DNA from: Xiphophorus maculatus
Taxonomy: Eukaryota > Chordata > Actinopteri > Cyprinodontiformes > Poeciliidae
Assembly (NCBI RefSeq): GCF_002775205.1
Contig: NC_036456.1
Location: 7,405,463 to 7,469,462 of the forward strand
DNA: 64,000 nt
Reading direction: 5' to 3'
Shown here: piece by piece, positions 15,713-58,964 of the stretch
Layout of the letters: each line of letters starts with the position of its first letter
Numbering within the stretch: the stretch's first letter is position 1
The notes under the pieces: model-generated
What the model saw: the letters and a program-made list of their open reading frames with translations, nothing else
What the model was told of the DNA's origin: nothing
The model's database searches: none
Made by a program: the position numbers and the translations under genes

Positions 15713-20103
<4,391 letters not shown>

Positions 20104-22511: not shown

Positions 22512-25500
22512 ATGGCTTTCCTAAAGCTGACTGGGTTAGTCCTGGTGACCCTGCTGCTGTACAGTGGTAAGAAATAAGTTTTTGTTTTAAATATTTCTAT
22601 ACATACAATAAAATTTGTCTCATTGTGTCAAACTTGACTTTAGCAATACTTAGAGAAAGGTATTTGACTTAGTATTTCTGTTTTTAAAATAAAAATCTCT
22701 ACAAAAAGTATGTGTATCTATCTAGTTAAATTATCTAAAGTCTGCCTTGAACATTGGAATAGTGGTGGTCAGTTTCATCACATGTCACTAAATGTATGTG
22801 TTGGGGGTTTTTTGTAATAATTTTGAGATGAAGCATTCCTCTGTTCTGTGTTCCAGGTTGTCAGTCGCAGCCGTTTGGTAAGCGTCTAAGGCCAGTTTGA
22901 GAAGTTGTGCGAGTTTTGAAAGTTTTTTTTTCCCCTCTTCTGCAGCGAATGGAGAGTTAAGTTATACTAATGTCACATATTTTAATACCAGAAGGTATCC
23001 CTTCCAAAGGGCAGTGTCACCAGACCTGTGTGCAAATTGTTTTGCAAGTTGGAGCTCAGTCAAAGCCGCCATAATTTCTGCCTCCATTATAATGGCAGCC
23101 AAAGAGAAGAATCAGCATAAAACATGTTTCAACAACCATGCATTTTACCTGTTTTGTTTCATTTATTAGTGTATGTAACAATACCAGATGTAAATGAATA
23201 TAGGAAATAAATAGTATTTAAAAAGAACAAAAATAAAACCCATACAAATCAGCAAACCACACATATCTTAAAGGTAAAATTTGCTCCAGGGAACACTGAA
23301 TGTTCTAGATAGACATAGAAAGTAAAAGGAATATCTTGTGACAGAACTTGTTGCATCTGTCCTTTCTTACTTATTTTTTCTTCCCTGTTGTCAGAATGTG
23401 GCCGTCTGACGACCAACACTCGAATTATTGGGGGTTTAGATGCATATCTTGGGATGTGGCCATGGCAGGCAAGTTTGCATCAGAATGGTTTTGCTTTCTG
23501 TGGAGGATCGCTGATCAGCCATCAATGGGTCCTGACTGCTGCTCACTGTGTAACATGGTGAGAGGTTGACAAAGCATATTACATTTTTTATTTAACCCTC
23601 CCACAGTCCTAAACTTGGGGCTCATTTGGACCCCAGGAACTTTTTACTACATGTGCGGTCCGGCGGGGTCGCACTGAACTGGCTTCTTGCTGAAATGTGT
23701 CATACAAATAAACTTGATTAACAATTTGACCATGTGTTGTCTGGGTAGAAGTCACAATAAGCAGTAATAAAAAACAAACTTCTGTTAATAGGAATGTGAC
23801 TATTACTGACGGAAGGTGTTGGCCCAGTTGCAAGACGTTCAACACTTGATAACTATTGTTGCCAATCTGTACCTATTGCAACCAAGTTGTTTGTGGACGC
23901 ATGTTCCATTCAAAGATTATATTGGGACAACTTGTAAACTACACGTGGTTTGTTTTTAGTATAATTATTAAGCTGTATTTCAAATGCAGAAGCAGGGTCA
24001 AATTTTATTTCAAAGCCCCGTTTCAACAATACGGGCATAAAACATTCCTGGACTATTTGTTTAGTTGCCATGGGGAAGATCTCAGACTAGTAGTCACTAA
24101 GTTTACCATCAGAAGTTCAAATTAATGATTGTACTTTTGTGTTTTGAAGGTATGACCTTTTCGTCACAGAAGTCCAGCTGGGTACTGTAGAACTGGATGC
24201 TGTCAGCCCCCATCGGGTGAATCTACGACTTGCTCAAATCATCTGCCATCCTGCGTACGACTCTGAGACATTTAACAATGACATTTGTCTTCTGAGGCTT
24301 TCAAAGCCTGTCAAGTTCACCAAGTACATCCAACCAATCTGCTTAGCTTCTGAAACCAGCGATATCCATGACGGGAAAAAGGCCTGGGTTACTGGTTTTG
24401 GTGTGACTGGTAAGATATGTGGGATTGGTAAGATATAGAATATTTACTTAATTTTTTCTTCTTAATTCTACACAAATGCTATTCATTTTTCTTTAAATAA
24501 CCACAGCAACTGGATCATCATCCAACAAGTTGAAGGAGGTAGATGTACCAATTATTGGAAGAAAGAGGTGTAGATGCTACTATAAACAGACTGCCTCAAT
24601 CACAGACAACATGATATGTGCTGGATATTTTGATGGAAGAAAGGACTCATGTCAGGTAACTATCTTTTTTCTTCTCTCTTTTCTTTTTTTAATGCCCACT
24701 ATCCAGCAGCGTGGCACTCAAAATTGTTGTCTTGAGTGTCAAGGTGAGGCCCAACAAATTTACTTTCACAAGTGGAGTATTATGCCTTTTGCCATGATGC
24801 TCCATTAGATTTACAAAACCTTTAGAGATTTCTTAGCGTTTATTTCAAATGGACACAGAGATGAAAAAGACAGGGCGAAAGGTGGAGAAAAGGTTTAAAA
24901 GGAAATGAGATCGGATTAGAGAAGAGGAATAAGCATAAAGTCACTAAAGTCTACCTCTAAATCTGCAGAAAGGGAGAAAGAAAAAAAAAACAAGCAACCA
25001 CAACAGCCAACATCTGCATATATAATATTAACAGTTATAGCATCACTGGAAAGTACACGATACATGGTAATACAAGATGGATATAGTGGCAACCGCAACC
25101 CGAGAGTGTATCTGACAAACACCTGAATCTAAACACTTGTATGTGACGTGTCACGTAACCATCATTGTGTGTTTACTTGTTTTTTAAATGGCTAAATGTT
25201 TAAACTGTTGGTCCTTTTCATCAAGAAAATCTACTGCTCAAACAAATACATTATGTTTATAATGTAACTTTTTGACATCAAGTTTTAGCATTTAAAATGA
25301 CATTTTTTATATATATATGGTTTCTCTGCTGAAAAATGTTTCCCTGTAAAATTTCTTAAAATAATTTTTACATGCTCTACTACTTGTTTCTCACTAGGGA
25401 GACTCAGGGGGCCCACTAATGATAAAAAAGGGCCGCAAGTGGGTCCAGGCTGGGATCGTGAGCATGGGTGAAGGCTGTGCCCTCCCACTGTCACCTGGAG

Positions 25501-25745
25501 TCTACACTCGAGTGTCCCAGTATGAGACTTGGATCAAAGACATGGTCACTGGCACGACACCGGGCTTTGTCACCTTCACTTCTCCTGGCATTGACAAGGA
25601 TTTAAGTTACTTCTGTCACCTCAATGGGACGGTTGACGAGAAATCTTTTGGTGGTGGTGAAAACCTGAGTCCTTTCAATCACTCATTGGCGTTCTCTGTT
25701 CTTGCAACATTTCTCCATGTATTTTTTGGCAAAGAATACATTTAA
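22512..25745 (+). CDS. Gene B: trypsin-like S1A serine protease, likely GPI-anchored
   Basis: Six exons: 22512-22566, 22857-22877, 23395-23557, 24150-24409, 24507-24655, 25398-25745. They total 996 nt, 331 aa, with phases identical to gene A. Residues 1-19 form a hydrophobic signal peptide ([19 protein letters not shown]). Activation would occur at R35|IIGG. The triad is H76 (TAAHC), D124 (FNNDICLL) and S219 (GDSGGP). D213 precedes SCQ, so trypsin-like specificity is expected. The exon 6 tail lacks a Thr-rich stalk; it runs from CHLNGT to SFGGGE and then a hydrophobic end. The AYLGMWPWQ segment departs from the usual SPG-WPWQ. A partial tandem copy of its 3' end lies just downstream. Neighbours A and C are paralogs in the same orientation. 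Confidence 0.92.
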
Positions 25746-29363: not shown

Positions 29364-34127
<4,764 letters not shown>

Positions 34128-35096: not shown

Positions 35097-36124
35097 TGTA
35101 ACCCACATTGCGTTCAAGGATTAATAAGATTTTAAATAATCCGAATTAAAATTTATCCAAACAGTTCTTAAAGTCTAGCTAGGTTCGGCTACTGGAGGAG
35201 ATGGCAATTTGTAAAGCACAGAGACAGTAAGACGGTGCAAATTGGTGAGTTGTATTTAGTATTTACAATATATATACACACATTAGTCCATAGTGTAAAG
35301 GAAAAACAAGTTAAAGTTCCTTATACCAAGGACGTCCACCAGTCTTTGTTGATGATGAAAAAAAAACCCAAAATAATCCACTTCCTTCAATGGGGACTTG
35401 AGCTGATCCTCCAATTAGGTCGGAAGAATATTCCCAGATGATAAGTCTTGTGTTTCGGTATCCTGCTTATTTTAGCTCGCCAGTCTGGTCAGTGAAACCA
35501 GACAATCCTTGCTATTGTCAAGATCCCTCCAGCCACTCCTTGCGCGAGGGATCTGCAACGCACCTGGCCTGTATAAACAGACCTAATTAATCAGTTACAT
35601 GTGCAGACGTTTCATAAGTAAATATAACTTATGCAACCAATATTGTTACGCAACAAATCAATATACAATCACAACAGGCTGGAAGACTAGTGCTAGCATA
35701 CTAGCTCCCTACCAAACACTCACCAGTTCCCTCTTGACTAATCGTGATTCTTGCAACGTTTGGTTGAGTAATCACCCGGCTGCAAGTTAACAGACATACA
35801 CGATTGAAAAACAGACAATAGAGATCTGAAAACCTCGTCGGGAACAGACCAGAAGCCTACCTGCACATCAGAGTCCCGCAGCGTTTCCTGCCTAAGCTGC
35901 GATTTGCAGCCATATAAACTGTGCTGTCAATTTAGGACGCTGATGTGCAGCTGTCACATGACGTCAGAGCCACGCGAGAACACTATTGTTCTCGCCTGGT
36001 TGGTGTTAAATAAATTAAGGGGAAGAGGAAAAAATGTTTAAGTAACCCTTTAAAAAATAAATCTAACAAAATGGAAAATAAAATAAATAAACTAAATCTA
36101 ATATAGAAAATGATCCTGGTTACA
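35097..36124. mobile_element. Probable solo LTR of an LTR retroelement (fossil)
   Basis: A 1028-bp block starts 'tgtaacc' and ends 'ggttaca' (TG...CA ends), flanked by 'taaa' at 35093-35096 and 36125-36128. Copy 2 of the segmental duplication has the empty site with one 'taaa' (around 49040). It has no internal coding region, as expected of a solo LTR left by recombination. It inserted after the duplication, so it is young relative to the array. The superfamily cannot be named from the LTR alone; a non-autonomous DNA element with 7-bp inverted ends is the alternative. Confidence 0.65.
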
Positions 36125-37452
36125 TAAATCTATAAATAAATATTGTTTGTATTTATTATCTAAGATTTTAGATTTTCAATTTAAGAGCCCTATTTACGAT
36201 CTTAGATTTTACCCTCATTTTACCGCTCTCTCTCTCTCTTTCTCTGCAAACACTACTTTCACACTTTTTCAAAACGGCACTCAGAAACGTATTGTGCTCC
36301 ACGTTGAACCACCGTTTCCATGACCGGCTTGAATTCTGCTCCTTTCCCTGAAATGTTTTCTGCGTTGTGTCCAGTTTGTTCCCACCTCCATTCCTGCAAA
36401 TTAGTTTTAACTGCGCGTCGTTGTAGCCCCATTCTTTCTAACTGCACACAATTTGAAGAAAAAGCTTCGCCAGAATGGAACCTCCATCTTCCTGTTTTTA
36501 TGTCTTAATAATTTACAGAGGAATAAAAGGTAAATGAAGCTCAGCAAAGTTTAATGAGAAGTAAGTTAAATCTCCTGCGTTTATGTTTTAAGAATCTGAC
36601 CCACATTGTCCCTCTGGGATGAATGAAACTGTGGGGCTGAAAGGCAATAACATTTTGGGAAACAACCAGTCAAGCCTTCAGTATAAAAGCTTCTTATCCT
36701 ACAACGTCAACATGTGTAATCCTCACACCCTCCTTTTCTCCTTTCACCTCCAAATATCCTTTCTATTCATCCATACTAAAATAATTTCAAACTTGTCCTA
36801 CTTACTTGGATAAAGCCACCTTGAACTTAAACCAAATACCATTAGAGTTAGCCCTTTAAATGCAGTGAGTTGGATTTCTGTTTGAATGATACAAGTATTT
36901 TAAATGTTTTACTATCTCTAAATATCTCTATTACTATACAGTAAAATATCACATTTATTCTGGTTAAATAAACTGGCTTCAAAGTCCTCCATACAGACTT
37001 CAGTATTAAAAAAAAAAAAAAAGAGAGCTACATTACCAGACTATTTTCTACTGGAAATAAAGGCATCCAGTTTTTCAGGATAATGTTCAGGAAGAAAGCA
37101 GCCATCAAGTACTGCAGAATCTGTTAATCACCCACAGATTAAACCAGGTGTGTGGCAGAAGGGAAACACCTGAAACATGCAGGGCAGGGGGGCTGGAGGA
37201 CGGAACCGAGAAACACTGCATTAGACCTTTGCTATGTTTAATCATCGTGACCATTTGTGCTTCTTTTTAGTTGTATTAAACTCAGAAGTGGTCAAAATGT
37301 ATAACTGCTCTAGTATTAAGAGGAAATTATTGTATTTCTCTTCAATTTGCCCTCTTAGTTGACACAAGTTAACTATTTAGTAAAACTGTTTCCCAGTGTT
37401 TAGGATTATTACTAGCTGGGTGGCATCCTGAACTAAACTGGCCAATTAGATT

Positions 37453-37845
37453 ATCCATCCATCCATCCACCCATTTTCTGTTCACCCTTGTCCCTAATGG
37501 GGTCAGGAGGGTTGCTGGTGTCTATCTCCAGCTACGTTCCAGTCGAGAGGCGGGGTTCACCCTGGACAGGTCGCCAGTCTGTCGCAGGGCAACACAGAGA
37601 CAGACAGGATAAACAACCATGCGCACACACACTCACACCTAGGGAGAATTTAGAGAGAGAGACCAATTAACCTGACAGTCATGTTTTTGGACTGTGGGAG
37701 GAAGCCGGAGTACCCGGAGAGAACCCACGCATGCACAGGGAGAACATGCAAACTCCATGCAGAAAGACCCCGGACCGGGAATCGAACCCAGGACCTTCTT
37801 GCTGCAAGGCAACAGTGCTACCAACTGCGCCACTGTGCAGCCCCA
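37453..37845 (-). mobile_element. Fish interspersed repeat with ATCC tail (RTE-LINE-like)
   Basis: It starts with a (TCCA)n run and continues with 'ggacaggtcgccagtctgtc', 'gactgtgggaggaagccgga' and 'ggaatcgaacccaggacctt'. This is a very common teleost repeat, which I believe to be the 3' part of an RTE-type LINE or a SINE sharing its tail, in reverse. It is repeated in copy 2 at about 50592-50975. Confidence 0.7.
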
Positions 37846-38107
37846 TTTACATTATATATTGTTAAAACAGTAAAAAGCCATGATGCATAAACAACCTCGT
37901 CTAGCTTATTTGAGTTGCACGCCATGACAACATAACCTTGCTTCCCAAAAACACTCTGTGCATAGCGCTTCAGGTACAGTCATTACCAACTAATTGATCC
38001 AGATAGACAAGTTTGGATTCATTCTTGTTCTTTTAAGATCCAAGCCAGACCACAGAGAGAGCTCATTTGTGATCAGAGCAGTTTATTGGACCTCATGTCA
38101 CTTTGGG

Positions 38108-38119
38108 TGGAGCTAAACA
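38108..38119 (+). promoter_or_regulatory. Shared upstream motif of gene D
   Basis: 'tggagctaaaca' lies 61 bp before the ATG of gene D, matching the motifs before genes A, C and E. Confidence 0.5.
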
Positions 38120-38168
38120 CAGAAAAATATTTAATGTTGAAGACCAGAGAAAAGAGGTACTGGTGACA

Positions 38169-41100
38169 ATGGCTCTTCAAGGGTTTGCATGGGGGATCAC
38201 TGTGATGATCGCACTCTTCTTCAAAGGTGAGAAAAATATATTTCTTATATTTCTCTTTCATTGAAATACTGTTAAAGAAAAGCATCGCACACCGTCTATA
38301 GCCATCAAATCAGTCATTTGCTTTGCAGTTCACCTCTGTTACCCACGGTCCGGGGGCCAAATCTGGTCCGCTGTAGCTTTTCATGTGGCCCTCTAGACTG
38401 CAAATTACTTTAATAAGTCCCTCCAGTTTCTCACAAATCTGCTAAATTCACACTAAATCAATAGATCTCCACATTTTTTCATATTTTACTGTTTTTTTGA
38501 TTTGTTTCCGTTTTCAAAATTGACCAAAAACATTGAGTTTAAGTGACTGCTGCCTCAGTCTTACTTGATACGACAATTAATAAAAAGTCACATTTAGTAT
38601 CATGCATTAGTTCAAATGTTAAAATTTCTTACAAATATTTATAAATTAGCACCACAAAAACAATGGCAAAATCCTGGATGGACTGATCAGTGTGAAAAGA
38701 TAATATTAAATTAGAAGAAACTCTTGTTTAATGCTAAAACAGCTATTTATTGTCAATTTAATAATTTAATGAGTTTTATAAAAACATTCTGGCACAACCT
38801 GCCCTTTAACATCATTCAGGCTTTTTATACGGCCCAAAATAAAAATGAGTTCGACACTCCTGGCCTACAAGTAATTTATCTGAGAGATTATATCCATAAT
38901 TCCCAGAAATACTTTACCAGAAGAAATAAACTGATAGACTTTAGTATGACATGGTGTGTTTACAGGTACACCATGGAAAAGGACGGCATGATTCATATAG
39001 GAAAACAAGTTTATGATTATGATCCAAACTAAGAGCTAAGGAAATGTTCAGTGGTTTTGGCTGAATCTACTAAATGATTCCATATTTATTTAAGTCTGTA
39101 CAGCTGATCTCAAAAGACTGTCATACGAATTTGTGGATAAACTACTGAACCATCAATGATATACAGACAATTGCCTTGTTTAATACGGTTTATTTTTGCA
39201 ATTTTTATATTGTTGATGGTTGGCTTCATATAAGACAGTGACACAAAATCTGTCTCTTAATATCAATGATGTACTGAGGGGATAAGATCTGATTATGGAT
39301 TTGATATACATGTCTGACTGACAAAGTGAGAAAACAGTCTCACCTGACTTGTTTGACATGTTTGTGTTTGTGTGTGTGCAAATTTCAGGAGGTGACTCAC
39401 AACCCGGTAAGTATCCAACACTCCTTTTCTAATTTTTAACAGGAAAAAAAATAATAATTGTACTTTTGGGAATTTTTTACCTGTAAAATGATAAAAATGT
39501 TCACGTTGATCTGGAAGATTTTTGAGGTGGGGAAATTAGTGCATCACTTAGATATTTAGTATTCAGACCCTTTGATGCTACAAACACAAACTTGATTGTA
39601 TGTTCTTGGGGTTCAATATGATAGACCATTGCAGAGTGGTGCAAAATAAAATTTTAATTATTGTGTTGTGTTGATCTATCTCATAAAATTCTTTTAAAAT
39701 TAACTGAAACTGATAGTAAATATCACAAAAACAGGCATGTTTAAGGTACAATAGTCAGTTTTGTTAAAAATCACTCACTTACAAAATAAATGGGCAAAAT
39801 CTAATTTTCAGTTTTTTATAGCATTAAATATTTCAAGCAGCACATTGTTAAAGGGGCAGTGTTATGTAAAATCAACTTTTTGAGCTTTACGTCATGTAAT
39901 GTTATTTCCTCATCAAAAACATTCCTGGAGTGTTGCTTTGTTTCTCCATTAATGTTTGAGAAATCCCTTAATTTAAAACGCCTGGGTGGACCTGGCTCCA
40001 CCTTTGAGGACAAAGCTCCTCCTCCGTGCTGCAATTTCCAAGCTTCCGACTCAGAGCCTCCCTTCTCCGCGACTGCTCCACTCAGCTCCTTCAGACTAGC
40101 CAGCCACAATTAGCGCACATTAGCTGAACTTGCTATAATAGCTGCTTCTCAGTGAAACGCTGATTTGATTTATTTATTCCAAACAGGTTTTTAAAAACAA
40201 GCAATCAGTAGGACAGAGAAAACATCTGCATACATAACCAAGAACAATATTAGTTTACCACTACTTTACAGTTTGAAAAGGAATATAAACAAATGAACAC
40301 TCATTTAATATCACCCCTTATCTAAATTTATTGAAATATATCACTTACCGGCTCAATAATTATCAAAAATCTGTAATTAAAACCAAGTTATAATATTCAT
40401 GTGCATGTTCAATATACTGCTACAGAACCAATAAAAACTATATTCCATTGGCAAAATGGTTACAAACTATCATAAGAAAATCTATGGATGACAATAATAG
40501 TAATAATGGCAATAATAAATAATTGGACATACAGCATCAGAATAATTACCAAGTCTTTGCCGATGTACATCTATAGATTCTTCTTAATATGTGTTATGTA
40601 AAAATAAGTAAAATGCTTTAAAAAAAGAGAAAAATGATGGAATGATAACATTAACAAGTTACCAATAGTGGTAATAGTAACAGAAGAAAGGAAAGAAAAA
40701 ACTCATTTGTGTTCATTTCCTTCTTCCCTGATGAAACATTGTTAAAGGGTTAATAAAGGAGCGGCGTTATGACTTCCTGAAGACAGACTTTCAGAAAGAG
40801 CAGGAGGTTTTAAAGAGACCAGGGCCTAATTTCAAGGAGTTAATTTATGAAGTCAAATTTCTAAGTTATATTTGATGTAGATAGCCTTTTTATAACATCT
40901 ATTGCTTGATTGTGTCATAAAATAGCACCATGTGACTGGAAAATGCATAATGCTGCACCTATAATAAAGATTTGCCTATGTGTTCTGACTAATTTTGTAC
41001 AGACTGACCCACTGTTTTAAAAACAAAACAAGTGAAAACCATCTGTGTCATTAACCTTTGTGTTTTGTGATTGTTGTAAAGCCTGTGCCAGCCCTCCCAT

Positions 41101-44100
41101 CAACAGCAGGATCATCGGAGGGCAAGATGCATCTCCAGGAAGTTGGCCCTGGCATGTTGCTTTTACCTTTGACAACATCCTCTTCTGTCAGGGATCTCTG
41201 ATCACCGACGAGTGGGTGCTGACAGCTGCTCAATGCCAAACGTAGGAAGCTATGGTTTGGTATTTTGCAACAAATCACCTTGCAGCAACCATCAAATGAA
41301 CTCCACTTTATATGTTTTTTAAAGTTATTTTTCAAAGATCTTTTCAAATTAATCTACCGTAAATTTCAGACTACATAGCACACGTGGCTGAAAGCCGCAT
41401 GCTCTAATTTTAGAAAGAAAATTAATTTTGTACAAGCCGCACTGGATTAGTAAGATGGTAAACCGCAGGTGACCCACGTTGTAATAAGAGATATTTACAA
41501 AGAAAGACATTACACATGAGGACTACATATTGCAAGTGTTTTATATGAAGAGTAACTTTAGCATGGCTACCTTTACATATACGCACATATCAGTAACATA
41601 AATTACGTTGCTTATACTTTTTCACTGAACAGTGCACAAATATTCCAATATGTCCACCTCTGGGACCTTCAGTTTGTTAACAGTCCCAGTGAGAGGCAGG
41701 CAGTGGTGGAGAAAGTACTCAAACAATGTACTTAAGTAAAAGTACAAATACACAGACAAAAATGTACTCTAGTAAAAGTACCACATTAACATTTGTACTT
41801 GAGTAAAAGTAGAAATGTACTGGCTTTTAAAAATACTTACGTATTAAAAGTAAAAGTACTTGCTGAAAGCATTACATAATTGCTAATACAATACCATTAA
41901 ATGTACCTATCGTATTTAATATTAATATATTAGTAATGTGTCATTGTTATTAACAATGCCACAGATAAAGCATGTTTTTATTGTGTTTACTCCCTGTAAC
42001 ATAGTTTAGACTTAGATATGTGATTCTATGCATCATAATTTCAGGGATGGAAACATCTCGTCTCCTGAACATAGCATGAACTTCACTTTTTTTTTTTTTA
42101 CCACTAGTGGCATTTATTTTGACAGAAATCCAACAGAAATGTGATGGAAAGAAGGTGGATGAGGGAGGATATGCAACCAAGGAGCCATGTAGCAGTGTTG
42201 TAGTCATGACCGCCAAACCCGAGACCAAGACCAGCGCCCCGCGCTACATGACTCAATAAAATTAAGTGCACCTATCAAAATTGCTTCTCAAATTGATCTG
42301 AAAGATCCACATTTCCATAAAATACCTAGATATTAAATACTTAGAGCTGAAATAAATGTAACCAGTATCATTATCAATTCAAACTCTTCTTCATTCTGCT
42401 TTGCTTCCATCTCTGTGCCACAATCCACAGAGGTCTCCTGCCACTCCTAAAAAGATAACGCCCTGGGCGGTTGCCCATATCGCCCACGTCAGAAACCACA
42501 ACTGTCTGCACCATTAAACATAGCAATTAAGACAATGCATTAACGGTAAACAACACTCAACTATGAACACTGTCCAAGGGCAACAAGCAAGAAGTAACCA
42601 AGCAGAAGGACCGTGACTGTTCTCACCCTGTCTGCCATGACAGGTGACGAAAACAATCAAAGAGCAATGAGCATGCTCTGCGTTCTTATTTTGTTTATTC
42701 AGCAGAAATGTAGTGAAGTAGAAAGTACAGATACTTGCTGTAAAATGTAGTGGAGTAAAAGTCGAAAGTATCCATGATTAAATCTACTTAAGTACAGATA
42801 CACGAAAATTGTACTTGAATACAGTAACGACATACTTTTATTTTGTTACTTCCCACCCCTGGAGGCAGGTAAAACGTCAAAGGTTCTTCATCCATATTTA
42901 TGATATATGGCCTGAAGGAATTCTCCGCCATCTTTGTTTGAGTGAACATGTGAAAGTTAGCAGGGTTATCCTCGTAGTCAGGAGGGAGCTGCTGACGCAA
43001 AGCCGTGCATGCCTTGATGGACAGGCCTTTTTGCCTCATAAATCTAAAACACCACAATGGCCCAACTCTAAAATCTTTGATTCTCATTTCAGTGGCGATT
43101 GCTTTAGCCTTCAGTCTGATCTGCACCATAGAAACACTGCAGCCACTTCCTGTCTGTGTGTTAAGCCAGTCTTCAAGAAAGTTTTCAAGTTCGAGCCATC
43201 TGTTATGGTTACCTCTGAAAGCTTTCGTTGTCCTTTTGCTTTGACTCAGTTCTTCACGCTGGCGTCTCCACCGTCTCACCATCAATTCATTTATGCCAAG
43301 ATTATGTCCTTCTTGAACCGCCAGATTGATCGCCTTCATCATATGATTTTCTTTGAGTGTTTTCCATGTTGATGAGGGCGAAAAAGTGGCAGATTTACTA
43401 TACCAGTCATTGATTTGAAAATGTTGTCTTAATTTATTGTATAATTTAATTAGATCTCTGATCAATTTAATTTGTCTATTGTTATGTGGCAAAATGTTTT
43501 TGGCAGTGTGGGAGAAAAAAACAAACAAAAAAAAACATGCATTAGCCTTGCCTTAGTATAGGCCACAGTGTTCAAAGAGTGGGAAAAAAAAGTAGCGGCT
43601 TATAGTCTGGAATTTATGGTAGTCAACTCAAAACAGATTTTAACTGCAGTAAACTCAGTGATGTGCAGCAGTCATGTCAGGTCAGCATCTGGATCAAGGA
43701 TGCCAGTTTTACACCTCTACTACTGAAAAGAAAGCAAGAAAGACAGATAAAGATCTACCTACTGTGATACTCAGTGACAATCATATTTAAACACTTTTCT
43801 TCTCTCTTCTTTAAGCACTCCCTCTATTGTAGTTTTGCACTTTGGAATTGGTGAAGTGACTCGGGGAATTGACAGCTTTCACTGCCACCCAAACCACACC
43901 TACTATGGTGGAAACGACATCTGCCTTGTGAAGCTGTCTGCTCCAGTCAACTTCACTGACTACATCCGACCAGTGTGTTTGGCTGCAGAAAACAGCACTT
44001 TCTACGATGGAACCAGCAGCTGGGTCACTGGTTTCAGTGACTACACAAGTAATTTCTACAGTTTTGTATTTAGCATCAGCTTTCTGTACAATACCATTGC

Positions 44101-45849
44101 TGAATTCTCCAAAGAGAAATAATCCTTAAAACTTTATTCTTTAGTATCCTACCCTTTACAGGAAAGCGATGCATCAGTAGTTGGGAACAGAAAATGCCAC
44201 TGCAGCTACAACAACTACTACGAATACAACTACGACTACAACTACATCTACAACAACTTTCCAATAACAGAGGACCGGATGTGTGCTGAAAGTGAAAATG
44301 GTTCAAAGACAGAATCTTCTGTAATTACCTTTTTTTGTTCTCATTTTTTGATTATGTTTTGAGCGAAATTGAACTTCATGAAATGCACTTAAATCTGCAT
44401 TCCAGAAGCCTTAAGTAACTTTTCTAGATATTTGATAAAGCTGTAACTATGTTGTAACACTATGCTATGAGACAGATAGTCATGTATTCCTAATACAGAA
44501 ATACATAACTTGGTCAGAAACAACCAATAAAACCCAGAAGGAGGGTCTTAGCGCTGTCAATCACGCTTGTGTGTATGGTTCACTCCCTCCAATTACTCTC
44601 TGCTGCCCTAAAGTTTTTCCTCATCAGCAGAGCCTGCCACAAATGCTAAGGCTAGTTAGCATAGCCACTGATCACAGCAGATAAACGGTTTAGTGTTTCT
44701 CCACCATCAGCACATTGAGCAGCGTGAACGTGAGCAGTGATTAATAGCACTAAGACACGTCTTCTCCTGATTGGTTGTTTCTGAACAGGAGCATTTCTGT
44801 AGATAATAGTATCAGGGCCGTGCAGAGACCTATGGAGGGGCAGGGGCTCAAATTTAAAAAAGGGGCACATTGAACCAAAACACAATACAACAACACAGCA
44901 ACAACCCATATTAATCAAGAATCTAATTGGATTCTACTGTATCATTGCTATCATGCGGGGAAATGCAAAGCAAATATAATCTATATTTTCCCCAACAGGT
45001 ATAAAGTTTCTGTTTCTGCTGCTGACAGTCCTGGAAATCTGAGCTGATCTGAGACTGTATCTGTTAAACAGACCAGAGGAGAAAAAGGTCCCTGGTTATG
45101 AAGTTATGAAATAAGCAAAATTGCTGCCATTTTACTAATTAAGCCCTAATAATATCTATTTAATCTCTAGAGCAACTACAGCAGCTTTAATTCAATTTAG
45201 TCAGTTCTTATCTCAAGCAATTTAATGAGATGTGTTCTGTCTCAGTTTGTTGATTTTAAAATAGTGATTGTGTTTTTGTTTTGTTTTTTTTAAAACAGCA
45301 AAGTGTCACTATTGGACCAGATTTAAAAACACCGTTTAACATCTATGTTGTTTTAAAATTCTTCCACAGAGAGATGAAGGCGCAGCTCTAGTAACCAAGA
45401 AAGACTCCATCTGGGTCCAGAGTGGGATTGTGAGTCTTACCTGGCCGAATCTACCTACTATCTATACTCGTGTGTCCCAGTACCAGAAATGGATCACCGA
45501 CACAGTCACTGGCATGGACCCAGGTTTTGTTACCTACACCTCCCCAGGCATTGACAGCGACTTGAACTACAACTGTCCTCCACCACCAACTACCACCCAG
45601 CGCCCCGACTTTACCACCCAGCGCCCCGACTTTACCAGTCAGCGCCCCGACTTTACCAGTCAGCGCCCCGACTTTACCAGTCAGCGCCCCGACTTTACCA
45701 CCCAGCGCCCCGACTTTACCACCCAGCACTCTACCACTGACGACAGCATATTTGGCAGTGGTGAAACTCTGATTCCCGTCGCTCGAGTCTTCCCTCTCTC
45801 TGCTCTTGTTCTGTTTGTCCATCTGTTTGTTGGTGGTGCTGGAAACTAA
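38169..45849 (+). CDS. Gene D: catalytically dead S1A pseudoprotease, QRPDF-repeat stalk
   Basis: Six exons: 38169-38226, 39389-39406, 41082-41241, 43816-44048, 44145-44320, 45370-45849. They total 1125 nt, 374 aa, fully open with the same intron phases as A-C. Signal peptide 1-20 (MALQGFAWGITVMIALFFKG). The activation site R35|[10 protein letters not shown] is kept. The catalytic His is Gln76 (TAAQC, codon 41231-41233); Asp113 (GGNDICLV) remains; the catalytic Ser is Glu218 (RDEGAA, codon 45376-45378). The S1 Asp is Thr212 and CQ of KDSCQ is SS; the partner Cys220 region is cut from [13 protein letters not shown] to TWPNLPTIY, so this disulfide is lost as a pair. Cys42/58 and Cys168/182 equivalents remain. 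Exon 5 encodes a Tyr/Asn-rich loop (residues 177-194). The stalk has six QRPDF heptads, then [11 protein letters not shown] and a hydrophobic tail. A non-enzymatic role (binding, decoy, scaffold) is an inference. ATTAAA at 46103-46108. Confidence 0.9.
38331..38868. repeat. hAT-like MITE in intron 1 of gene D
   Basis: The left end has 'cggtccgggggccaaatctg' and the right end 'atgagttcgacactcctggc'. Together they match the fish repeat whose ends read GTGTC(A/G)AACTCAT and GGGCCAAATCTGGCCCG. It is repeated in copy 2 at about 51463-52000. Confidence 0.6.
39848..40966. repeat. Long MITE with inverted ends in intron 2 of gene D
   Basis: Left end 'ttaaaggggcagtgttatgt' and right end 'atgcataatgctgcacctat' are imperfect reverse complements. 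The middle (about 40180-40740) is AT-rich and may be a further insertion. No transposase is seen. Repeated in copy 2 at about 52979-54110. Confidence 0.6.
41357..43619 (-). mobile_element. Pogo/Tigger-type DNA transposon in intron 3 of gene D
   Basis: Ends 'ccgtaaatttcagactacat' and 'tatagtctggaatttatgg' are imperfect terminal inverted repeats flanked by TA at 41355-41356 and 43620-43621. On the minus strand a 246-codon frame (43528-42788) has a CENP-B-like helix-turn-helix region (ELMVRRWRRQREEL, AIATEM, GPLWCFRFMRQKGLSIKAC) and reaches MDEEPLTF, which fits the first Asp of the DDE domain. There a hAT element interrupts it. The rest of the DDE domain is missing, so the element is non-autonomous. 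The paralogous copy is at 54507-56755. Confidence 0.85.
41701..42861. mobile_element. Non-autonomous hAT element nested in the pogo element
   Basis: A 1161-bp block starts 'cagtggtggagaaagtactc' and ends 'cttcccacccctg', giving hAT-like terminal inverted repeats. It is flanked by perfect 8-bp duplications 'gaggcagg' at 41693-41700 and 42862-42869. Sub-terminal 'aagtaaaagtac' words repeat at both ends. No transposase frame is seen. It sits inside the transposase region of the pogo element and is therefore younger than it, but older than the segmental duplication because copy 2 has it too (54846-56013). Confidence 0.9.
44405..44810. repeat. MITE family 1 copy in intron 5 of gene D
   Basis: Contains 'ggtcttagcgctgtcaatca', 'aggctagttagcatagcc' and 'ctgattggttgtttctgaac'. 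Repeated in copy 2 at 57525-57920. Confidence 0.7.
45595..45728 (+). repeat. 21-bp coding minisatellite, gene D stalk
   Basis: Six tandem 21-bp units encode T(T/S)QRPDF. Units differ by ACC-CAG versus AGT-CAG, giving TTQ or TSQ. The array is in frame within exon 6 and forms the stalk between the pseudoprotease fold and the membrane tail. Confidence 0.95.
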
Positions 45850-47228
45850 ATCATAGCTTTGACTCATTCTGCATTCTAGTTCATAACCAACACCAACTCT
45901 CTATTCATTAGAATCAAAATGTTGATATTTTTACTCTGATTTAGTTTTATTTCACAAATTAAGATTTCTACAAAGCAAATGAAGGATGTAATAAGTTTAT
46001 CTGGTAATTAGTTTAACAAACCTCTCATAAAATTCAAATCGTTTATTTTTTTTTTCTGTCCTTTACATTGTGTTGACTGTATTTTCTTAACTGTAAATGC
46101 CAATTAAATCTCGAGTGTTTAACAGACAACAGGTTTGGGATTTTTAGCAGATAATCACACTGTTATTTTATTAAATATGAAACAAACAAACTGTGATTAG
46201 TAATAAACTGTGATTAAAATCATTCAAAACTATATTTTTCTGTTTTATTTTTTGTGCCGACCCGATGTTTCAAGGTTGGAAGACTGAGTTTGGTGTCCAG
46301 TTTGACAAAAAAGATGGAAGCAGTTTATGAGTCTGGCGAGGGATTTTAATGCGTCTCAGGAGAACTTCAATTAAGCCAATCCAATCCAACATAAATGTTA
46401 AGAAGCGAACATTTCTTCATAATCAGGAAAATATTTAATGGGCTGTTTTTAACCTTTCACAAGACTGTAAGTACAAGAACTCCTCCACGGAGTACAGAAG
46501 TGCGAACTAGTGCATTCAAATAAACAACTTAATGTTACAGGAAGTCATCATCAGTGGCCATGCTAAGTAGCCTTAGCATTCATGGCATGGTGCTGGTGGG
46601 GAGAAGCCGTAGCCTAGCAGAGAACAAGGGGAGAGCAGCATGTACAGAAGCCTGATTGACAACACCAAGACCTTCTTTCTTCCTCTGATTGGTCGTTTCT
46701 GAGAGAGCGGTGTATTTCTGCAGTCAGTACTGGGAAAAGACAGAGATGATCGGTTTTTCCACAGATTATCCGTCTCATTACACTGTCACAACAGAGTGAT
46801 AGTTTTAACAAAAAGAGTTTATAAAAGTTACCTACTGTTGCTTTCATTATTTCAGGAGGTATTTATGTTCATAATCATCTCAACTAGCACATGATTGAAT
46901 ATTGGAAGAAAAAGTATATTAAATTTTTAACGTTTTCCACATTTTGTGCAACTAAAATACGATGTATGGCACTCATTTATTTTTCCATTTTTACTGTAAC
47001 ATCCTTGATTAAAATGTAGCACAACTAAATCCCTTAAGATGTGACTTCATTAGTTCAAAACATTGCAACTGTGTGCAGTTCAGCACAGTTTAGTGGGACC
47101 TAATTAATTTTTAGTAGATGATATATTTGCCTGTGTTAATACAAAATCCTCTTTGTTTTCCAAACCCAAGTGGTTGAAATTGTGAAGGTCTGATTGGAAA
47201 CGACTGAAGTACAGTCGTTTCCAATCAT
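45850..47228. other. Downstream of gene D up to the duplication junction
   Basis: 3' UTR of gene D followed by a family 1 MITE copy at about 46490-46855. That MITE is shortened compared with copy 2 (59890-60300), where about 330 bp more are present. No gene is seen. Confidence 0.6.
47191..47227. repeat. 15-bp perfect inverted repeat at the duplication junction
   Basis: Arms 'tgattggaaacgact' (47191-47205) and 'agtcgtttccaatca' (47213-47227) are exact reverse complements around the 7-nt spacer 'gaagtac'. Homology with the end of copy 2 stops at 47210 and homology with the start of copy 1 begins about 47229, so the right arm is junction filler not found at either outer edge. The left arm is present at 60633-60647 without the right arm. 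Confidence 0.9.
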
Positions 47229-47817
47229 AAATGCAATGTTTTCATCGGATCATTGAAACCTACCTAGTTTGTAGGTAGGTTTCGGACCTGCCGATTCTGA
47301 TTTTGCCGATACCATTTTTTTTTTTTGTCTGAAATGTCATTAAATATAGCAGGAAAGTTGTTGATTTGGCAACAGTGGAGCGACTCTTGTTACGTGCAAA
47401 CGTGCAGACATGACCCGATGGGTGGGGCCAACAGTCAAACCTCTCACAGGTGAGCAGGAGAGGACAGTGGTTGGTTTCAAGACATTTGCTGGGGTAGATG
47501 ATATCAGGTGAAAAGATTGGCTACACATTGAAGTATTGGCCAATCACCAATCTCTGAAAATGAAGGAAATTTTTACCAATGAATCGGCTGCACCCCTAAT
47601 TAAAATCAAAGTATTTCACAGGATAAAACCAAAAAAAGCAGCATTGTTTTTGATGTCCAGTCCCTAACTGAAGGAAGGAAGCATTGCACAACATGTAACA
47701 CAATAGAACCAAAGAAAAAGCAGACACTGTAGAAAAACCTAATCAGTCCAGCCAAAAATAAAAGAAAATTTGAGAATGAGAAGGTAATATAAAACTGCAA
47801 TTACTATCCACAAGTAA

Positions 47818-48273
<456 letters not shown>

Positions 48274-49136: not shown

Positions 49137-49176
<40 letters not shown>

Positions 49177-51296: not shown

Positions 51297-54200
51297 ATGG
51301 CTCTTCAAGGGTTTGCATGGGGGATCACTGTGATGATCGCACTCTTCTTCAAAGGTGAGAAAAATATATTTCTTATATTTCTCTTTCATTGAAATACTGT
51401 TAAAGAAAAGCATCGCACACCGTCTATAGCCATCAAATCAGTCATTTGCTTTGCAGTTCACCTCTGTTACCCACGGTCCGGGGGCCAAATCTGGCCCGCT
51501 GTAGGCTTTTCATGTGGCCCTCTAGACTGCAAATGACTTTAATAAGTCCCTCCAGTTTCTCACAAATCTGCTAAATTCACACTAAATCAATAGATCTCCA
51601 CATTTTTTCATATTTTACTGTTTTTTTGTGTTTTGTTTCATTTTTCAAAATTGGCCAAAAACATTGAGTTTAAGTGACTGCTGCCTCAGTCTTACTTGAT
51701 ACGACAATTAATAAAAAGTCACATTTAGTATCATGCATTAGTTCAAATGTTAAAATTTCTTACAAATATTTATAAATTAGCACCACAAAAACAATCGCAA
51801 AATCCTGGATGGACTGATCAGTGTGAAAAGATAATATTAAATTAGAAGAAACTCTTGTTTAATGCTAAAACAGCTATTTATTGTCAATTTAATAATTTAA
51901 TGAGTTTTATAAAAACATTCTGACACAACCTGCCTTTAAGAACATTCAGGCTTTTTATACGGCCCAAAATAAAAATGAGTTCGACACGCCTGGCCTACAA
52001 GTAATTTATCTGAGAGATTATATCCATAATTTCCAGAAATACTTTACCAGAAGAAATAAACTGATAGACTGTAGTATGACATGGCGTGTTTACAGGTACA
52101 CCAGGGAAAAGGACGGCATGATTCATATAGGAAAACAAGTTTATGATTATGATCCAAACTAAGAGCTAAGGAAATGTTCAGTGGTTTTGGCTGAATCTAC
52201 TAAATGATTCCATATTTATTTAAGTCTGTACAGCTGATCTCAAAAGACTGTCATACGAATTTGTGGATAAACTACTGAACCATCAATGATATACAGACAA
52301 TTGCCTTGTTTAATACGGTTTATTTTTGCAATTTTTATATTGTTGATGGTTGGCTTCATATAAGACAGTGACACAAAATCTGTCTCTTAATATCAATGAT
52401 GTACTGAGGGGATAAGATCTGATTATGGATTTGATATACATGTCTGACTGACAAAGTGAGAAAACAGTCTCACCTGACTTGTTTGACATGTTTGTGTTTG
52501 TGTGTGTGCAAATTTCAGGAGGTGACTCACAACCCGGTAAGTATCCAACACTCCTATTCTAATTTTTAACAGGAAAAAAAATAATAATTGTACTTTTGGG
52601 AATTTTTTACCTGTAAAATGATAAAAATGTTCACGTTGATCTGGAAGATTTTTGAGGTGGGGAAATTAGTGCATCACTTAGATATTTAGTATTCAGACCC
52701 TTTGATGCTACAAACACAAACTTGATTGTATGTTCTTGGGGTTCAATATGATAGACCATTGCAGAGTGGTGCAAAATAAAATTTTAATTATTGTGTTGTG
52801 TTGATCTATCTCATAAAATTCTTTTAAAATTAACTGAAATTGGTGTTTGTAATATCACAAAAACAGGCATGTTTAAGGTACAATAGTCAGTTTTGTTAAA
52901 AATCACTCACTTACAAAATAAATGGGCAAAATCTAATTTTCAGTTTTTTATAGCATTAAATATTTCAAGCAGCACATTGTTAAAGGGGCAGTGTTAGATA
53001 AAATCAACTTTTTGAGCTTTACGTCATGTAATGTTATTTCCTCATAAAAACATTCCTGGAGTGTTGCTTTGTTTCTCCATTAATGTTTGAGAAATCCCTT
53101 AATTTAAAACGCCTGGGTGGACCTGGCTCCACCTTTGAGGACAAAGCTCCTCCTCCGTGCTGCAATTTCCAAGCTTCCGACTCAGAGCCTCCCTTCTCCG
53201 CGACTGCTCCACTCAGCTCCTTCAGACTAGCCAGCCACAATTAGCAAACATCTGCTGGAACTGCACATTAGCTGAACTTGCTATAATAGCTGCTTCTCAG
53301 TGAGACGCCGATTTGATTTATTTATTTCAAACAGGTTTTTAAAAACAAGCAATCAGTAGGACAGAGAAAACATCTGCATACATAACCAAGAACAATATTA
53401 GTTTACCACTACTTTACAGTTTGAAAAGGAATATAAACAAATGAACACTCATTTAATATCACCCCTTATCTAAATTTATTGAAATATATCACTTACCGGC
53501 TCAATAATTATCAAAAATCTGTAATTAAAACCAAGTTATAATATTCATGTGCATGTTCAATATACTGCTACAGAACCAATAAAAACTATATTCCATTGGC
53601 AAAATGGTTACAAACTATCATAAGAAAATCTATGGATGACAATAATAGTAATAATGGCAATAATAAACAACTGGACATACAGCATCAGAATAATTACCAA
53701 GTCCTTGCCGATGTACATCTATAGATTCTTCTTAATCTGAGTTATGTAACAATAAGTAAAATGTTGTTAAAAAAGAGAAAAATGATGGAATGATAACATT
53801 AACAAGTTACCAATAGTGGTAATAGTAACAGAAGAAAGGAAGGAAAAAACTCATTTGTGTTAATTTCCTTCTTCCCTGATGAAACATTGTTAAAGTGTTA
53901 ATAAAGGAGCGGCGTTATGACTTCCTGAAGACAGACTTTCAGAAAGAGCAGGAGGTTTTAAAGAGACCAGGGCCTAATTTCAAGGAGTTAATTTATGAAG
54001 TCAAATTTCTATGTTATATTTGATGTAGATAGCCTTTTTATAACAACTATTGCTTGATTGTGTCATAAAATAGCACCATGTGACTGGAAAATGCATAATG
54101 CTGCACCTATAATAAAGATTTGCCTATGTGTTCTGACTAATTTTGTACTGACCAACCCACTGTTTTAAAAACAAAACAAGTGAAAACTATCTGTCATTAA

Positions 54201-57200
54201 CCTTTGTGTTTTGTGATTGTTGTAAAGCCTGTGCCAGCCCTCCCATCAACAGCAGGATCATCGGAGGGCAAGATGCATCTCCAGGAAGATGGCCCTGGCA
54301 TGTTGCTTTTACCATTGGCAACAGCTTCCTCTTCTGTCAGGGATCTCTGATCACCGAAGAGTGGGTGCTGACAGCTGCTCAATGCGAACGGTAGGAAGCT
54401 ATGGTTTGGTATTTTGCAACAAATCACCTTGCAGCAACCATCTAATGAACTCCACTTCATATGTTTTTTTAAAGTTATTTTTCAAAGATCTTTTCAAATT
54501 AATCTACCGTAAATTTCAGACCACGTAGCACACGTAAATGAAAGCTGCATGCTCTAATTTTAGAAAGAAAATACATTTTGTACAAGCCGCACTGGATTAG
54601 TAAGATGGTAAACCGCAGGTGACCCATGATGTAATACGAGATATTTACAAAGACATTACGCATGAGGAATACATATTGCAAGTGTTTTATATGAACAGTG
54701 CCTTTAACATGTCTACCTTTAAATATACATACGTATCAGTAACATAAATTACATTGCTTATACTTTTTCACTGAACAGTGCACAAATATTCCAATATGTC
54801 CACCTCTGGGACCTTCAGTTGTTAACAGTCCCAGTGAGAGGCAGGCAGTGGTGGAGAAAGTACTCAAACAATGTACTTAAGTAAAAGTACAAATACACAG
54901 ACAAAAATGTACTCTAGTAAAAGTACCACATTAACATTTGTACTTGAGTAAAAGTAGAAATGTACTGGCTTTTAAAAATACTTACGTATTAAAAGTAAAA
55001 GTACTTGCTGAAAGCATTACATAATTGCTAATACAATACCATTAAATGTACCTATCGTATTTAATATTAATACATTAGTAATGTGCCATTTTAAATAATG
55101 CCACAGATAAAGCATGTTTTTATTGTGTTTACTCCCTGTAACATAGTTTAGACTTAGATATGTGATTCTATGCATCATAATTTCAGGGATGGAAACATCT
55201 CATCTCCTGTCCTAACATAGCATCAACTTCACTGTTTTTTTTTTTTTTTTACCACTAGTGGCATTTATTTTGACAGAAATCCAACAGAAATGTGATGGAA
55301 AGAAGGTGGGTGGGGGAGGATATGCAACCAAGGAGCCATGTAGCAGTGTTGTAGTCACGACCACCAAACCCGAGACCAACACCAGCGCCCCGCGCTACAT
55401 GACTCAATAAAATTAAGTGCACCTATCAAAATTGCTTCTCAAATTGATCTGAAAGATCCACATTCCCATAAAACACCTAGAAATTAAATACTTAGAGCTT
55501 AAATAAATTTAACCAGTATCATTATCAATTCAAACCCTCCTTCATTCTGCTTTGCTTCCATCTTTGTGCCACAATCCACAGAGGTCTCCTGCCACTCCTA
55601 AAAAGATAACGCCCTGGGCGGTTGCCCATATCACCCACGTCAGAAACCACAACCGTCTGCACCATTAAACATAGCAATTAAGACAATGCATTAATGGTAA
55701 ACAACGCTCAACTATGAACACTGTCCAAGGCGCAACAAGCAAGAAGTAACCAAGCAGAAGGACCGTGACTGTTCTCACCCTGTCTGCCATGACAGGTGAC
55801 GAAAACAATCGAAGAGCAATGAGCATGCTCTGCGTTCTTATTTTGTTTATTCGGCAGAAATGTAGTGAAGTAGAAAGTACAGATACTTGCTGTAAAATGT
55901 AGTGGAGTAAAAGTCGAAAGTATCCATGATTAAATCTACTTAAGTACAGATACACGAAAATTGTACTTGAATACAGTAACGATATACTTTTATTTCGTTA
56001 CTTCCCACCCCTGGAGGCAGGTAAAACGTCAAAGGTTCTTCATCCATATTTATGATATATGGCCTGAAGGAATTCTCCGCCATCTTTGTTTGAGTGAACG
56101 TGTGAAAGTTAGCAGGGTTATCCTCGTAGTCAGAAGGGAGCTGCTGACGCAAAGCCGTGCATGCCTTGATGGACAGGCCTTTTTGCCTCATAAATCTAAA
56201 ACACCACAATGGTCCACCTCTAAAATCTTTGATTCTCATTTCAGTGGCGATTGCTTTAGCCTTCAGTCTGATCTGCACGATAGAAACACTGCAGCCACTT
56301 TCTGTCTGTGTGTTAAGCCAGTCTTCAAAAAAAATTTCACCTTTCACCTCTGAAAGCTTTCGTTGTACTTTTGCTTTGACTCAGTTCTTCACGCTGGCGT
56401 CTCCACCGTCTCACCATCAATTCATTTATGCCAAGATTATGTCCTTCTTGAACCGCCAGATTGATCGCCTTTAGCGTAAAAGCGTCATCATATGATTTTC
56501 TTTGAGTGTTTTCCATGTTGATGAGGGCGAAAAAGTGGCAGATTTACTATACCAGTCATTGATTTGAAAAATTTTTCTTAATTTATTGTACAATTTCTTT
56601 AGATCTCTGATCAATTTCATTGGTCTATTGTTATAAGGAAAAATGTTTTTGGCAGTGTGGGAGAAAAAAAAACAAAAAACAAAACATGCATTAGCCTTGC
56701 CTTAGTATAGGCCAGTGTTCAGAGACTGGGGAAAAAAAGAAGCCAGAATTTACGGTAGTCAACTCAAAACAGATTTCAACTGCAGTAAACTCAGTGATGT
56801 GCAGCAGTCATGTCAGGTCAGCATCTGGATCAAGGATGCCAGTTTTACACCTCTACTACCGAAAAGAAAGCAAGAAAGACAGATAAAGATCTACCTACTG
56901 TGATACTCAGTGACAATCAGATTTAAACACTTTTCTTCTCTCTTCTTTAAGCACTCCCTCTATTGTAGTTTTGCACTTTGGAATTGGTGAAGTGACTCGG
57001 GGAATTGACAGCTTTCACTGCCACCCAAACCACACCTACTATGGTGGAAACATCTGCCTTGTGAAGCTGTCTGCTCCAGTCAACTTCACTGACTACATCC
57101 GACCAGTGTGCTTGGCTGCAGAAAACAGCACTTTCTACGATGGAACCAGCAGCTGGGTCACTGGTTTCAGTGACAACTTGAGTAATTTCTACAGTTTTGT

Positions 57201-58964
57201 TTTTAGCATCAGCTTTCTGTACAATACCATTGCTGAATTCTCCAAAGAGAAATAATCCTTAAAACTTTATTCTTTAGTATCCTACCCTTTACAGGAAATT
57301 GATGTATCAGTACTTGGGAACAGAAAATGCAACTGCAGCTACAACTACATCTACATCTACAACTACATCTACAACTATCCAATAACAGAGGACCTGATGT
57401 GTGCTGGAAGTGAAAATGGTTCAAAGACAGAATCTTCTGTAATTACCTTTTTTTGTTCTCATTTTTTGATTATGTTTTGAGTAAAATTGAACTTCATGAA
57501 ATGCACTTAAATCTGCATTCCAGAAGCCTTAAGTAACTTTTCTAGATATTTGATAAAGCTGTAACTATGTTGTAACACTATGCTATGAGACAGATAGTCA
57601 TGTATTCCTAATACAGAAATACATAACTTGGTCAGAAACAACCAATAAAACCCAGAAGGAGGGTCTTAGCGCTGTCAATCACGCTTGTGTGTATGGTTCA
57701 CTCCCTCCAATTACTCTCTGCTGCCCTAACGTTTTTCCTCATCAGCAGAGCCTGCCACAAATGCTAAGGCTAGTTAGCATAGCCACTGATCACAGCAGAT
57801 AAACCGTTTAGTGTTTCTCCACCATCAGCACATTGAGCAGCGTGAACGTGAGCAGTGATTAATAGCACTAAGACACGTCTTCTCCTGATTGGTTGCTTCT
57901 GAACAGGAGCATTTCTGTAGATAATAGTATCAGGGCCGTGCAGAGACCTATGGAGGGGCAGGGGCTCACATTTAAAAAAGGGCCACATTGAACCAAAACA
58001 CAATACAACAACACAGCAACAACCCATTTTAATCAAGAATCTAATTGGATTCTACTTTATCATTGCCATCATGCGGGGAAATGCAAAGCAAATATAATCT
58101 ATATTTTCCCCAACAGGTATAAAGTTTCTGTTTCTGCTGCTGACAGTCCTGGAAATCTGAGCTGATCTGAGACTATCTGTTAAACAGACCAGAGGAGAAA
58201 AAGGTCCCTGGTTATGAAGTTATGAAATAAGCAAAATTGCTGCCATTTTACTAATTAAGCCCTAATAATATCCATTTAATCTCTGGAGCAACTACAGCAG
58301 CTTTAATTCAATTTAGTCAGTTCCTAACTCAAGCAATTTAATGAGATGTGTTCTGTCTCAGTTTGTTGATTTTAAAATAGTGATTGTGTTTTTGTTTTGT
58401 TTTTTTAAAACAGCAAAGTGTCACTATTGGACCAGATTTAAAAACACCGTTTAACATCTATGTTGTTTTAAAATTCTTCCACAGAGAGATGAAGGCGCAG
58501 CTCTAGTAACCAAGAAAGACTCCATCTGGGTCCAGAGTGGGATTGTGAGTCTTACCTGGCCGAATCTACCTACTATCTATACTCGTGTGTCCCAGTACCA
58601 GAAATGGATCACCGACACAGTCACTGGCATGGACCCAGGTTTTGTTACCTACACCTCCCCAGGCATTGACAGAGACTTGAACTACACCTGTCCTCCACCA
58701 CCAACTACCACCCAGCGCCCCGACTTTACCACCCAGCGCCCCGACTTTACCACCCAGCGCCCCGACTTTACCACCCAGCGCCCCGACTTTACCACTCAGC
58801 GCCCCGACTTTACCACCCAGCGCCCCGACTTTACCACCCAGCACTCTACCACTGACGACAGCATATTTGGCAGTGGTGAAACTCTGATTCCCGTCGCTCG
58901 AGTCTTCCCTCTCTCTGCTCTTGTTCTGTTTGTCCATCTGTTTGTTGGTGGTGCTGGAAACTAA
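51297..58964 (+). CDS. Gene E: S1A pseudoprotease lacking all three triad residues
   Basis: Six exons: 51297-51354, 52519-52536, 54228-54390, 56952-57181, 57278-57438, 58485-58964. They total 1110 nt, 369 aa, open throughout with family-standard phases. It is the recent tandem copy of gene D. Q77 (TAAQC, codon 54380-54382) replaces His and E213 (RDEGAA, codon 58491-58493) replaces Ser. The Asp codon is gone: GGNDICLV in D is GGNICLV here, an exact 3-nt loss at 57051/57052. S1 Asp and the Cys191-Cys220 pair are absent as in D. The activation site [11 protein letters not shown] is kept. The Tyr/Asn-rich loop is shorter and more regular (alternating Tyr with Asn or Ile). The stalk has six TTQRPDF units, then [11 protein letters not shown] and a hydrophobic tail. 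ATTAAA at 59217-59222. An intact frame despite catalytic loss argues against simple decay, though its youth limits that argument. Confidence 0.9.
54507..56755 (-). mobile_element. Pogo/Tigger element in intron 3 of gene E (copy 2)
   Basis: Duplicate of the element at 41357-43619, with TA at 54505-54506 and 56756-56757. The transposase remnant (56347-55940, minus strand) is shorter than in copy 1 because of differences around 56330-56480. It contains the nested hAT element at 54846-56013. Confidence 0.8.
54846..56013. mobile_element. Nested hAT element (copy 2)
   Basis: Duplicate of 41701-42861, with the same 8-bp flanks 'gaggcagg' at 54838-54845 and 56014-56021. Confidence 0.9.
57525..57920. 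repeat. MITE family 1 copy in intron 5 of gene E
   Basis: Copy 2 equivalent of 44405-44810, almost identical. Confidence 0.7.
58710..58842 (+). repeat. 21-bp coding minisatellite, gene E stalk
   Basis: Six tandem 21-bp units encode TTQRPDF, more uniform than in gene D (no TSQ units). Unit number is the same as in D, but the unit variants differ, pointing to homogenisation in one copy. Confidence 0.95.

Follow-up and report, generated by a model that had tools for sequence, protein, structure and literature searches.

Two neighbouring genes encoding trypsin-like proteins with a dismantled catalytic centre reside in a stretch of 64,000 nucleotides of the 704-Mb genome of Xiphophorus maculatus (C14:7405463-7469462; hereafter the window, to which all positions refer). 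We favour, with moderate confidence, the view that gene D (38169-45849, + strand) and its companion D2 (51297-58964, + strand) are a tandem pair of non-catalytic, prostasin-like homologs of the S1A serine proteases, probably anchored by glycosylphosphatidylinositol (GPI) via a repeat stalk, and used for binding. The notion that the two are retained dead homologs, and are not simply decaying, is supported by three sets of data: insertions and deletions (indels) between the copies preserve the reading frame, losses are concentrated in the active site, and the body of the protein was constrained on the stem leading to the pair. The initial annotation had described D as a dead paralog, and had suggested a regulatory, binding or decoy role. 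The same data argue for retention; as to the role, it is one that we infer.

Reconstruction of gene D, one exon at a time, recovered the open six-exon gene with canonical splice sites described in the initial annotation. All five introns are of the GT..AG type, and the joined coding sequence (CDS) spans 1125 nt and encodes 374 residues with no internal stop. Exon 1 (38169..38226) includes the start codon and a signal-peptide-like hydrophobic stretch, and exon 2 (39389..39406) measures 18 nt only. Exon 3 (41082..41241) encodes the activation site SR/IIGG, retains Cys42 and Cys58, and carries Gln in the place of His57, within the motif TAAQC. Exon 4 (43816..44048) retains Asp102, in the motif NDIC. 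Exon 5 (44145..44320) hosts an expanded loop rich in Tyr and Asn, a rebuilt 189 region, and Ser in the place of Cys191. In exon 6 (45370..45849) the canonical GDSGGP is turned into RDEGAA, Gly193 being replaced by Arg and Ser195 by Glu, with Asp194 and Gly196 kept; a deletion at about 216-220, a stalk made of six T(T/S)QRPDF repeats, and a hydrophobic C-terminus follow. Signal-like N-terminus, activation site and both triad substitutions had been correctly spotted in the initial annotation.

The second copy had been overlooked. Self-comparison of the window revealed a tandem duplication, in which the segments 33081-47210 and 47229-60652 match in pieces 96-98% identical. The first unit (+ strand) covers the end of gene C together with D, the second (+ strand) the last exon of C together with D2. 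D2 has the same six exons and GT..AG introns as D, and is open over 1110 nt. Exons 1 (51297..51354) and 2 (52519..52536) are followed by exon 3 (54228..54390), which is 3 nt longer than in D and encodes Gln57, exon 4 (56952..57181), 3 nt shorter, exon 5 (57278..57438), 15 nt shorter net in the Tyr/Asn-rich loop, and exon 6 (58485..58964), which carries RDEGAA with Glu195, six repeats and the tail as in D. The 3-base deletion in exon 4 removes one residue of the Asn101-Asp102 pair, and is read as loss of Asp102. Throughout the ten introns and two frames, D and D2 have neither lost introns nor gained stops, frameshifts or broken splice dinucleotides. No third near-identical copy was found by a protein search of the genome (at least 90 matches, 110 of 256 candidates scored), nor a further one by a DNA search with exon 6, in which all 5 candidates were scored and the others of the 8 matches fell within this window as well.

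Additional features of the duplicated units deserve mention. The last exon of gene C is repeated at 47851-48270, with GDSGGP and tail kept; exons 3-5 of C lie upstream of 33081, where the duplication begins, and are therefore missing from the copy. An antisense remnant of a Tc5-type transposase (HTH_Tnp_Tc5, 37.5 bits) lies within intron 3 of D (42788-43552, - strand). Its counterpart in D2 is located at about 55940-56701, and the matching stretch is split there over two open frames. The loop after Cys168 (44145-44320 in D, 57278-57438 in D2) includes a Tyr/Asn-rich codon repeat, and differs by 15 bases net between the copies. The identity of the D and D2 promoters over a 253-base run was given no weight, since longer identical runs (451, 340 and 283 bases) occur elsewhere.

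Judged from their sequences, D and D2 belong to the S1A trypsin-like fold. The Pfam Trypsin profile (PF00089) is matched along its entire length (1-220 of 220) with 124.4 bits by D and 123.9 bits by D2, against a cut-off of 20.6. At E 0.001 the only other match is to DUF1986, below its own cut-off. The best match of the protease domain among solved structures is prostasin (3e0n, residues 36-281, E 3.3e-28). A hydrophobic C-terminal stretch is recognized by inspection in D and D2, as well as in the neighbouring paralogs A, B and C; D and D2 end in GGAGN, B in GKEYI, C in Lys. The tail of D and D2 is a candidate GPI signal, and membrane tethering, judged by eye, is probable.

Losses were assessed against 13 paralogs bearing an intact triad, namely A, B and C, all located in the window, and ten encoded on C10 and C16. 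Residue numbers were set by motif anchors, and are approximate within loops. D has lost His57, Ser195, Gly193, Gly197, Pro198, Cys191, Gln192 and Cys220; four residues are deleted at about 216-220, where the wall of the S1 pocket is located, and Gly226 is replaced by Thr. Cys191 and Cys220, which form a disulfide pair in the S1A fold, have been lost together, while the remaining conserved cysteines, the activation site and Asp194 have been kept. The loss of the two cysteines, the 216-220 deletion and the Gly226 change were absent from the initial annotation, which reported in turn a Thr in the place of Asp189. The ungapped protein alignment indeed places Thr at 189. In gapped nucleotide alignments of D2, whose letters in this region are those of D, to A, B and C, an ACA (Thr) codon is rather inserted, and GAC is changed next to it into GAA (Asp189 to Glu); Ser190 is kept, Cys191 is changed to Ser, and Gln192 is deleted.

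The uneven distribution of the losses is manifest. Across the paralogs 65 columns are invariant. D has lost 9 of the 14 located in the active site and 6 of the 51 located elsewhere (p 1.9e-4), D2 10 of 14 and 5 of 51, respectively (p 1.2e-5); the p values are optimistic, because neighbouring positions are not independent, and the counts refer to the first alignment, before the gap in exon 5 was moved. When each of the 13 paralogs was left out in turn, it had lost 0 or 1 active-site invariants, and 0-8 elsewhere. With Q57, E195 and R193 in both copies, and D102 missing in D2, the two proteins are predicted not to be active S1A peptidases. With triad substitutions in genes that are otherwise intact, they qualify by sequence as S1A pseudoproteases, or serine protease homologs.

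The stem to D and D2 was analyzed by branch models, using one nucleotide tree, one alignment, and active-site sets of 36 or 24 columns. On the stem, the ratio of amino-acid-changing to synonymous rates (omega) is 0.34 in the body of the protein, against a background of 0.31 and with omega 1 rejected at p 8e-5, and 0.91 in the active site (background 0.12). With branch times shared, the corresponding stem values are 0.35 and 0.70 for 36 columns (active-site background 0.11), and 0.37 and 0.64 for 24 columns (active-site background 0.08; omega 1 for the body rejected, p 6e-5). The body background ranges from 0.31 to 0.32 in the three runs. A mixture with one neutral-time fraction shared by body and active site, as expected for a gene dead as a whole at once, was rejected with 36 columns (p 4e-4), and more weakly with 24 (p 0.006). 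On the control branches A, B, C and p27 the active-site omega is 0.05, 0.18, 0.006 and 0.08, the body omega 0.51, 0.50, 0.38 and 0.09, respectively. Along the stem, constraint persisted in the body and was lifted from the active site.

Frame retention was monitored by comparing the two copies. D and D2 differ at 34 of 1107 coding positions, and the units at 184 of 8406 noncoding ones (30/1107 and 153/6681 in an earlier alignment). Only 1 of the 32 noncoding indels is a multiple of three, in contrast to all 3 coding indels (Fisher, 6e-4). The figures are 4 of 4 with the earlier gap placement (8e-5), and 2 of 2 when the repeat-bearing exon 5 is left aside (0.005). According to a neutral simulation, the chance that neither stop, frameshift nor splice loss occurred is 0.0042; the no-stop part amounts to 0.43, the no-frameshift part, which rests on the same coding indels, to 0.016.

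Several observations weigh against retention for a non-catalytic use. Since the no-stop part is that large, few indels carry the simulation test, and some of the length change in exon 5 falls within a codon repeat, where slippage by three bases occurs readily. The differences between D and D2 are clustered, with identical runs of up to 451 bases, and gene conversion may have kept parts of the copies alike. D2 has lost Asp102 in addition. The copies differ by 6.3 synonymous and 29.7 amino-acid-changing changes, and the resulting ratio per site (pN/pS) of 1.39 does not depart from neutrality (p 0.43). The stem is one unrooted edge, and a portion of it may lie on the side of the active family members; the stem result comes from a single tree and a single alignment, and the 36-column set was widened after the result on invariant losses had been obtained, by adding positions 42-43, positions 139-142 and the residues up to 228, the 24-column rerun being made in addition. 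As to prostasin, a catalytically inactive form was no substitute for the active one in assays of PAR-2 activation in cells, and wound healing requires prostasin activity (PMC5452369).

A young pseudogene is an alternative. According to this hypothesis, the ancestor of D became nonfunctional not long before it was duplicated, and the two copies are now drifting, their frames being open by luck and gene conversion. The pN/pS value, the missing Asp102, the clustered identity, and an omega of 3.3 on the tips, to be compared to a background of 0.29, are all in its favor. The frame-preserving coding indels, the low chance of intact frames in the simulation, and a stem on which the active site is near-neutral and the body is not, with rejection of the shared fraction, speak against it, and we regard decay as a possible, though rather unlikely, history of the pair.

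What happened since the duplication may also be viewed as a special case of retention, in which the loops on the cleft side of the two proteins are under diversifying selection, in the context of a host-pathogen or reproductive conflict, and the proteins act as decoy or bait. In exons 3 and 5 taken together, 22 of 321 bases are changed, compared to 59 of 3975 for introns 1, 2, 4 and 5 (p 5e-8), and the changed codons are mostly amino-acid changing; the tip omega exceeds 1 at p 0.042. Yet, the two exons were chosen after the table of differences per segment had been seen, and the comparison leaves out intron 3, which is raised (91/2536), as well as the upstream (25/1255) and downstream (9/640) parts. 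The remaining exons are not raised (exon 1, 0/58; exon 2, 0/18; exon 4, 5/230; exon 6, 7/480). Moreover, the p value of 0.042 is marginal, omega is inflated by the several codons carrying two or three changes, exon 5 hosts a repeat, and the ratio over the whole CDS is not above neutral. Diversifying selection on the loops is a possible, but unlikely, addition. Recent relaxation, gene conversion and diversifying selection may each account for the pattern seen after the duplication.

Assembly errors should be taken into account as well. D2 could be the other haplotype of D, erroneously placed in tandem, a notion compatible with the other readings and suggested by the mere 18 bases which separate the two units. 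It is improbable, given the 2-4% divergence, the offset shifts denoting large indels between the units, and the lack of N runs in the window. Even if true, D would still be open, and the indel test would compare alleles. Finally, that D and D2 still work as enzymes, in which Glu195, identical in the two copies and flanked by the conserved Asp194 and Gly196, has taken over as nucleophile or general acid, is hardly conceivable with Arg at 193, cysteines 191 and 220 absent along with residues 216-220, Asp102 missing in D2, and active-site columns near-neutral on the stem.

If D and D2 are a retained non-catalytic pair, their products would be made and folded, and cleavage at Arg15-Ile16 could still take place. 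By analogy with prostasin, the proteins may bind partners at the cell surface, such as a membrane protease, or the substrate or inhibitor of one, and serve there as scaffold, co-factor or decoy. First candidates for the binding face would be the loops encoded by exons 3 and 5, expected on the cleft side of the fold, because they vary most from one copy to the other, and are likely to surround the old cleft. A bolder proposal, which we put forward as tentative, is that in a GPI-tethered dead pair the old cleft, freed from catalysis, turned into a fast-evolving binding face, and that the two copies bind different partners, acting as decoys or co-factors of membrane proteases.

The three neighbouring genes have intact triads, in agreement with the initial annotation. 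Paralogs A (17765..20100), B (23397..25742) and C (31506..34124), all on the + strand, were defined by the exons matching exons 3-6 of D, from the first Cys codon in A, and the translations of these exons retain H57, D102 and GDSGGP. Neither the first-exon peptide of D nor its upstream stretch had a convincing match in positions 1-33000, where first exons of A, B and C were sought, and the count of six exons was verified for D and D2 only. Exons of the Trypsin family are abundant in the genome (at least 180 matches, 150 of 484 candidates scored). Among them, second S1 domains on G000:C16 (L024:8-172, L025:5042-5197, L026:6175-6330) carry Asn, Ala or Ile in the place of His57 (NANC, NAAC, NAIC). 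The dead-type exons of L025 and L026 lie directly downstream of exons encoding active domains, in a polyserase-like arrangement with dead second domains. These domains share with D and D2 the genome and a substituted His57, and differ in that they adjoin active-domain exons, and may not be stand-alone genes. Two C16 paralogs, p23a and p23b (L023 exon 5), read KGPC where most members read KDSC, and retain GDSGGP; they have an altered S1 pocket and an intact triad.

Vertebrate S1A domains which are dead as enzymes and act by binding are known. HGF/MSP, haptoglobin and azurocidin are examples, and HGF carries Gln57. D and D2 differ from them, as these are secreted or granule proteins, some with extra domains, and have other residues at 195. 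In HGF/MSP, the protease-like domain is preceded by PAN and kringle domains. D and D2 are not of this type, since Trypsin, along with the sub-threshold DUF1986, is the only profile matched at E 0.001, and neither PAN nor kringle was found. Scabies-mite pseudoproteases were discarded as a comparison, being cysteine-type homologs, and thus of another kind. No title describing D or D2 was found among the matches listed for the literature on teleost pseudoproteases, GPI-anchored and prostasin-type pseudoproteases and Xiphophorus prostasin; no paper listed for the last of these topics named Xiphophorus.

Insects have serine protease homologs as well, for example the 125 of Tenebrio molitor. His57 is most often replaced by Gln (55 of 125; printed as 'H195Q' in a sentence on H57), and Glu is among the residues found at 195 in one to four proteins (PMC11172050). 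Among the 125 homologs, SerPH43 has a GPI-like tail, and a C-terminal extension similar to those of prostasin and testisin (PMC11172050). The beetle proteins resemble D and D2 in having open S1A frames with triad substitutions, Gln57 and Glu195 included; they belong to an arthropod, and a tandem dead pair beside active paralogs is not described in the part of PMC11172050 at hand. By sequence, D and D2 fit the broad kind of serine protease homologs. Glu in the place of Ser195, with a rebuilt oxyanion loop, had been deemed unusual in the initial annotation, which is only partly right: the combination of Gln57 and Glu195 is indeed uncommon, but neither change is unheard of.

The nearest relative of solved structure is prostasin (PRSS8/CAP1), a GPI-anchored S1A protease, to which D and D2 are similar in protease domain, activation site and hydrophobic C-terminal tail. 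Unlike prostasin, they have neither His57, Ser195 and Gly193 nor cysteines 191 and 220, their pocket wall is incomplete, and their stalk is made of the QRPDF repeat. Many functions of prostasin are independent of both zymogen conversion and catalytic activity (PMC5452369), which raises the question whether evolution keeps such a protein once catalysis is gone. D and D2 add to this picture a dead prostasin-like pair located next to paralogs whose triads are intact, and evidence that the body remained under constraint after the active site had been released; the active site diverged, while other conserved positions of the fold were largely kept. A GPI-type homolog with a dismantled catalytic centre, flanked by three paralogs with intact triads, is a natural test of which surfaces of these proteins matter.

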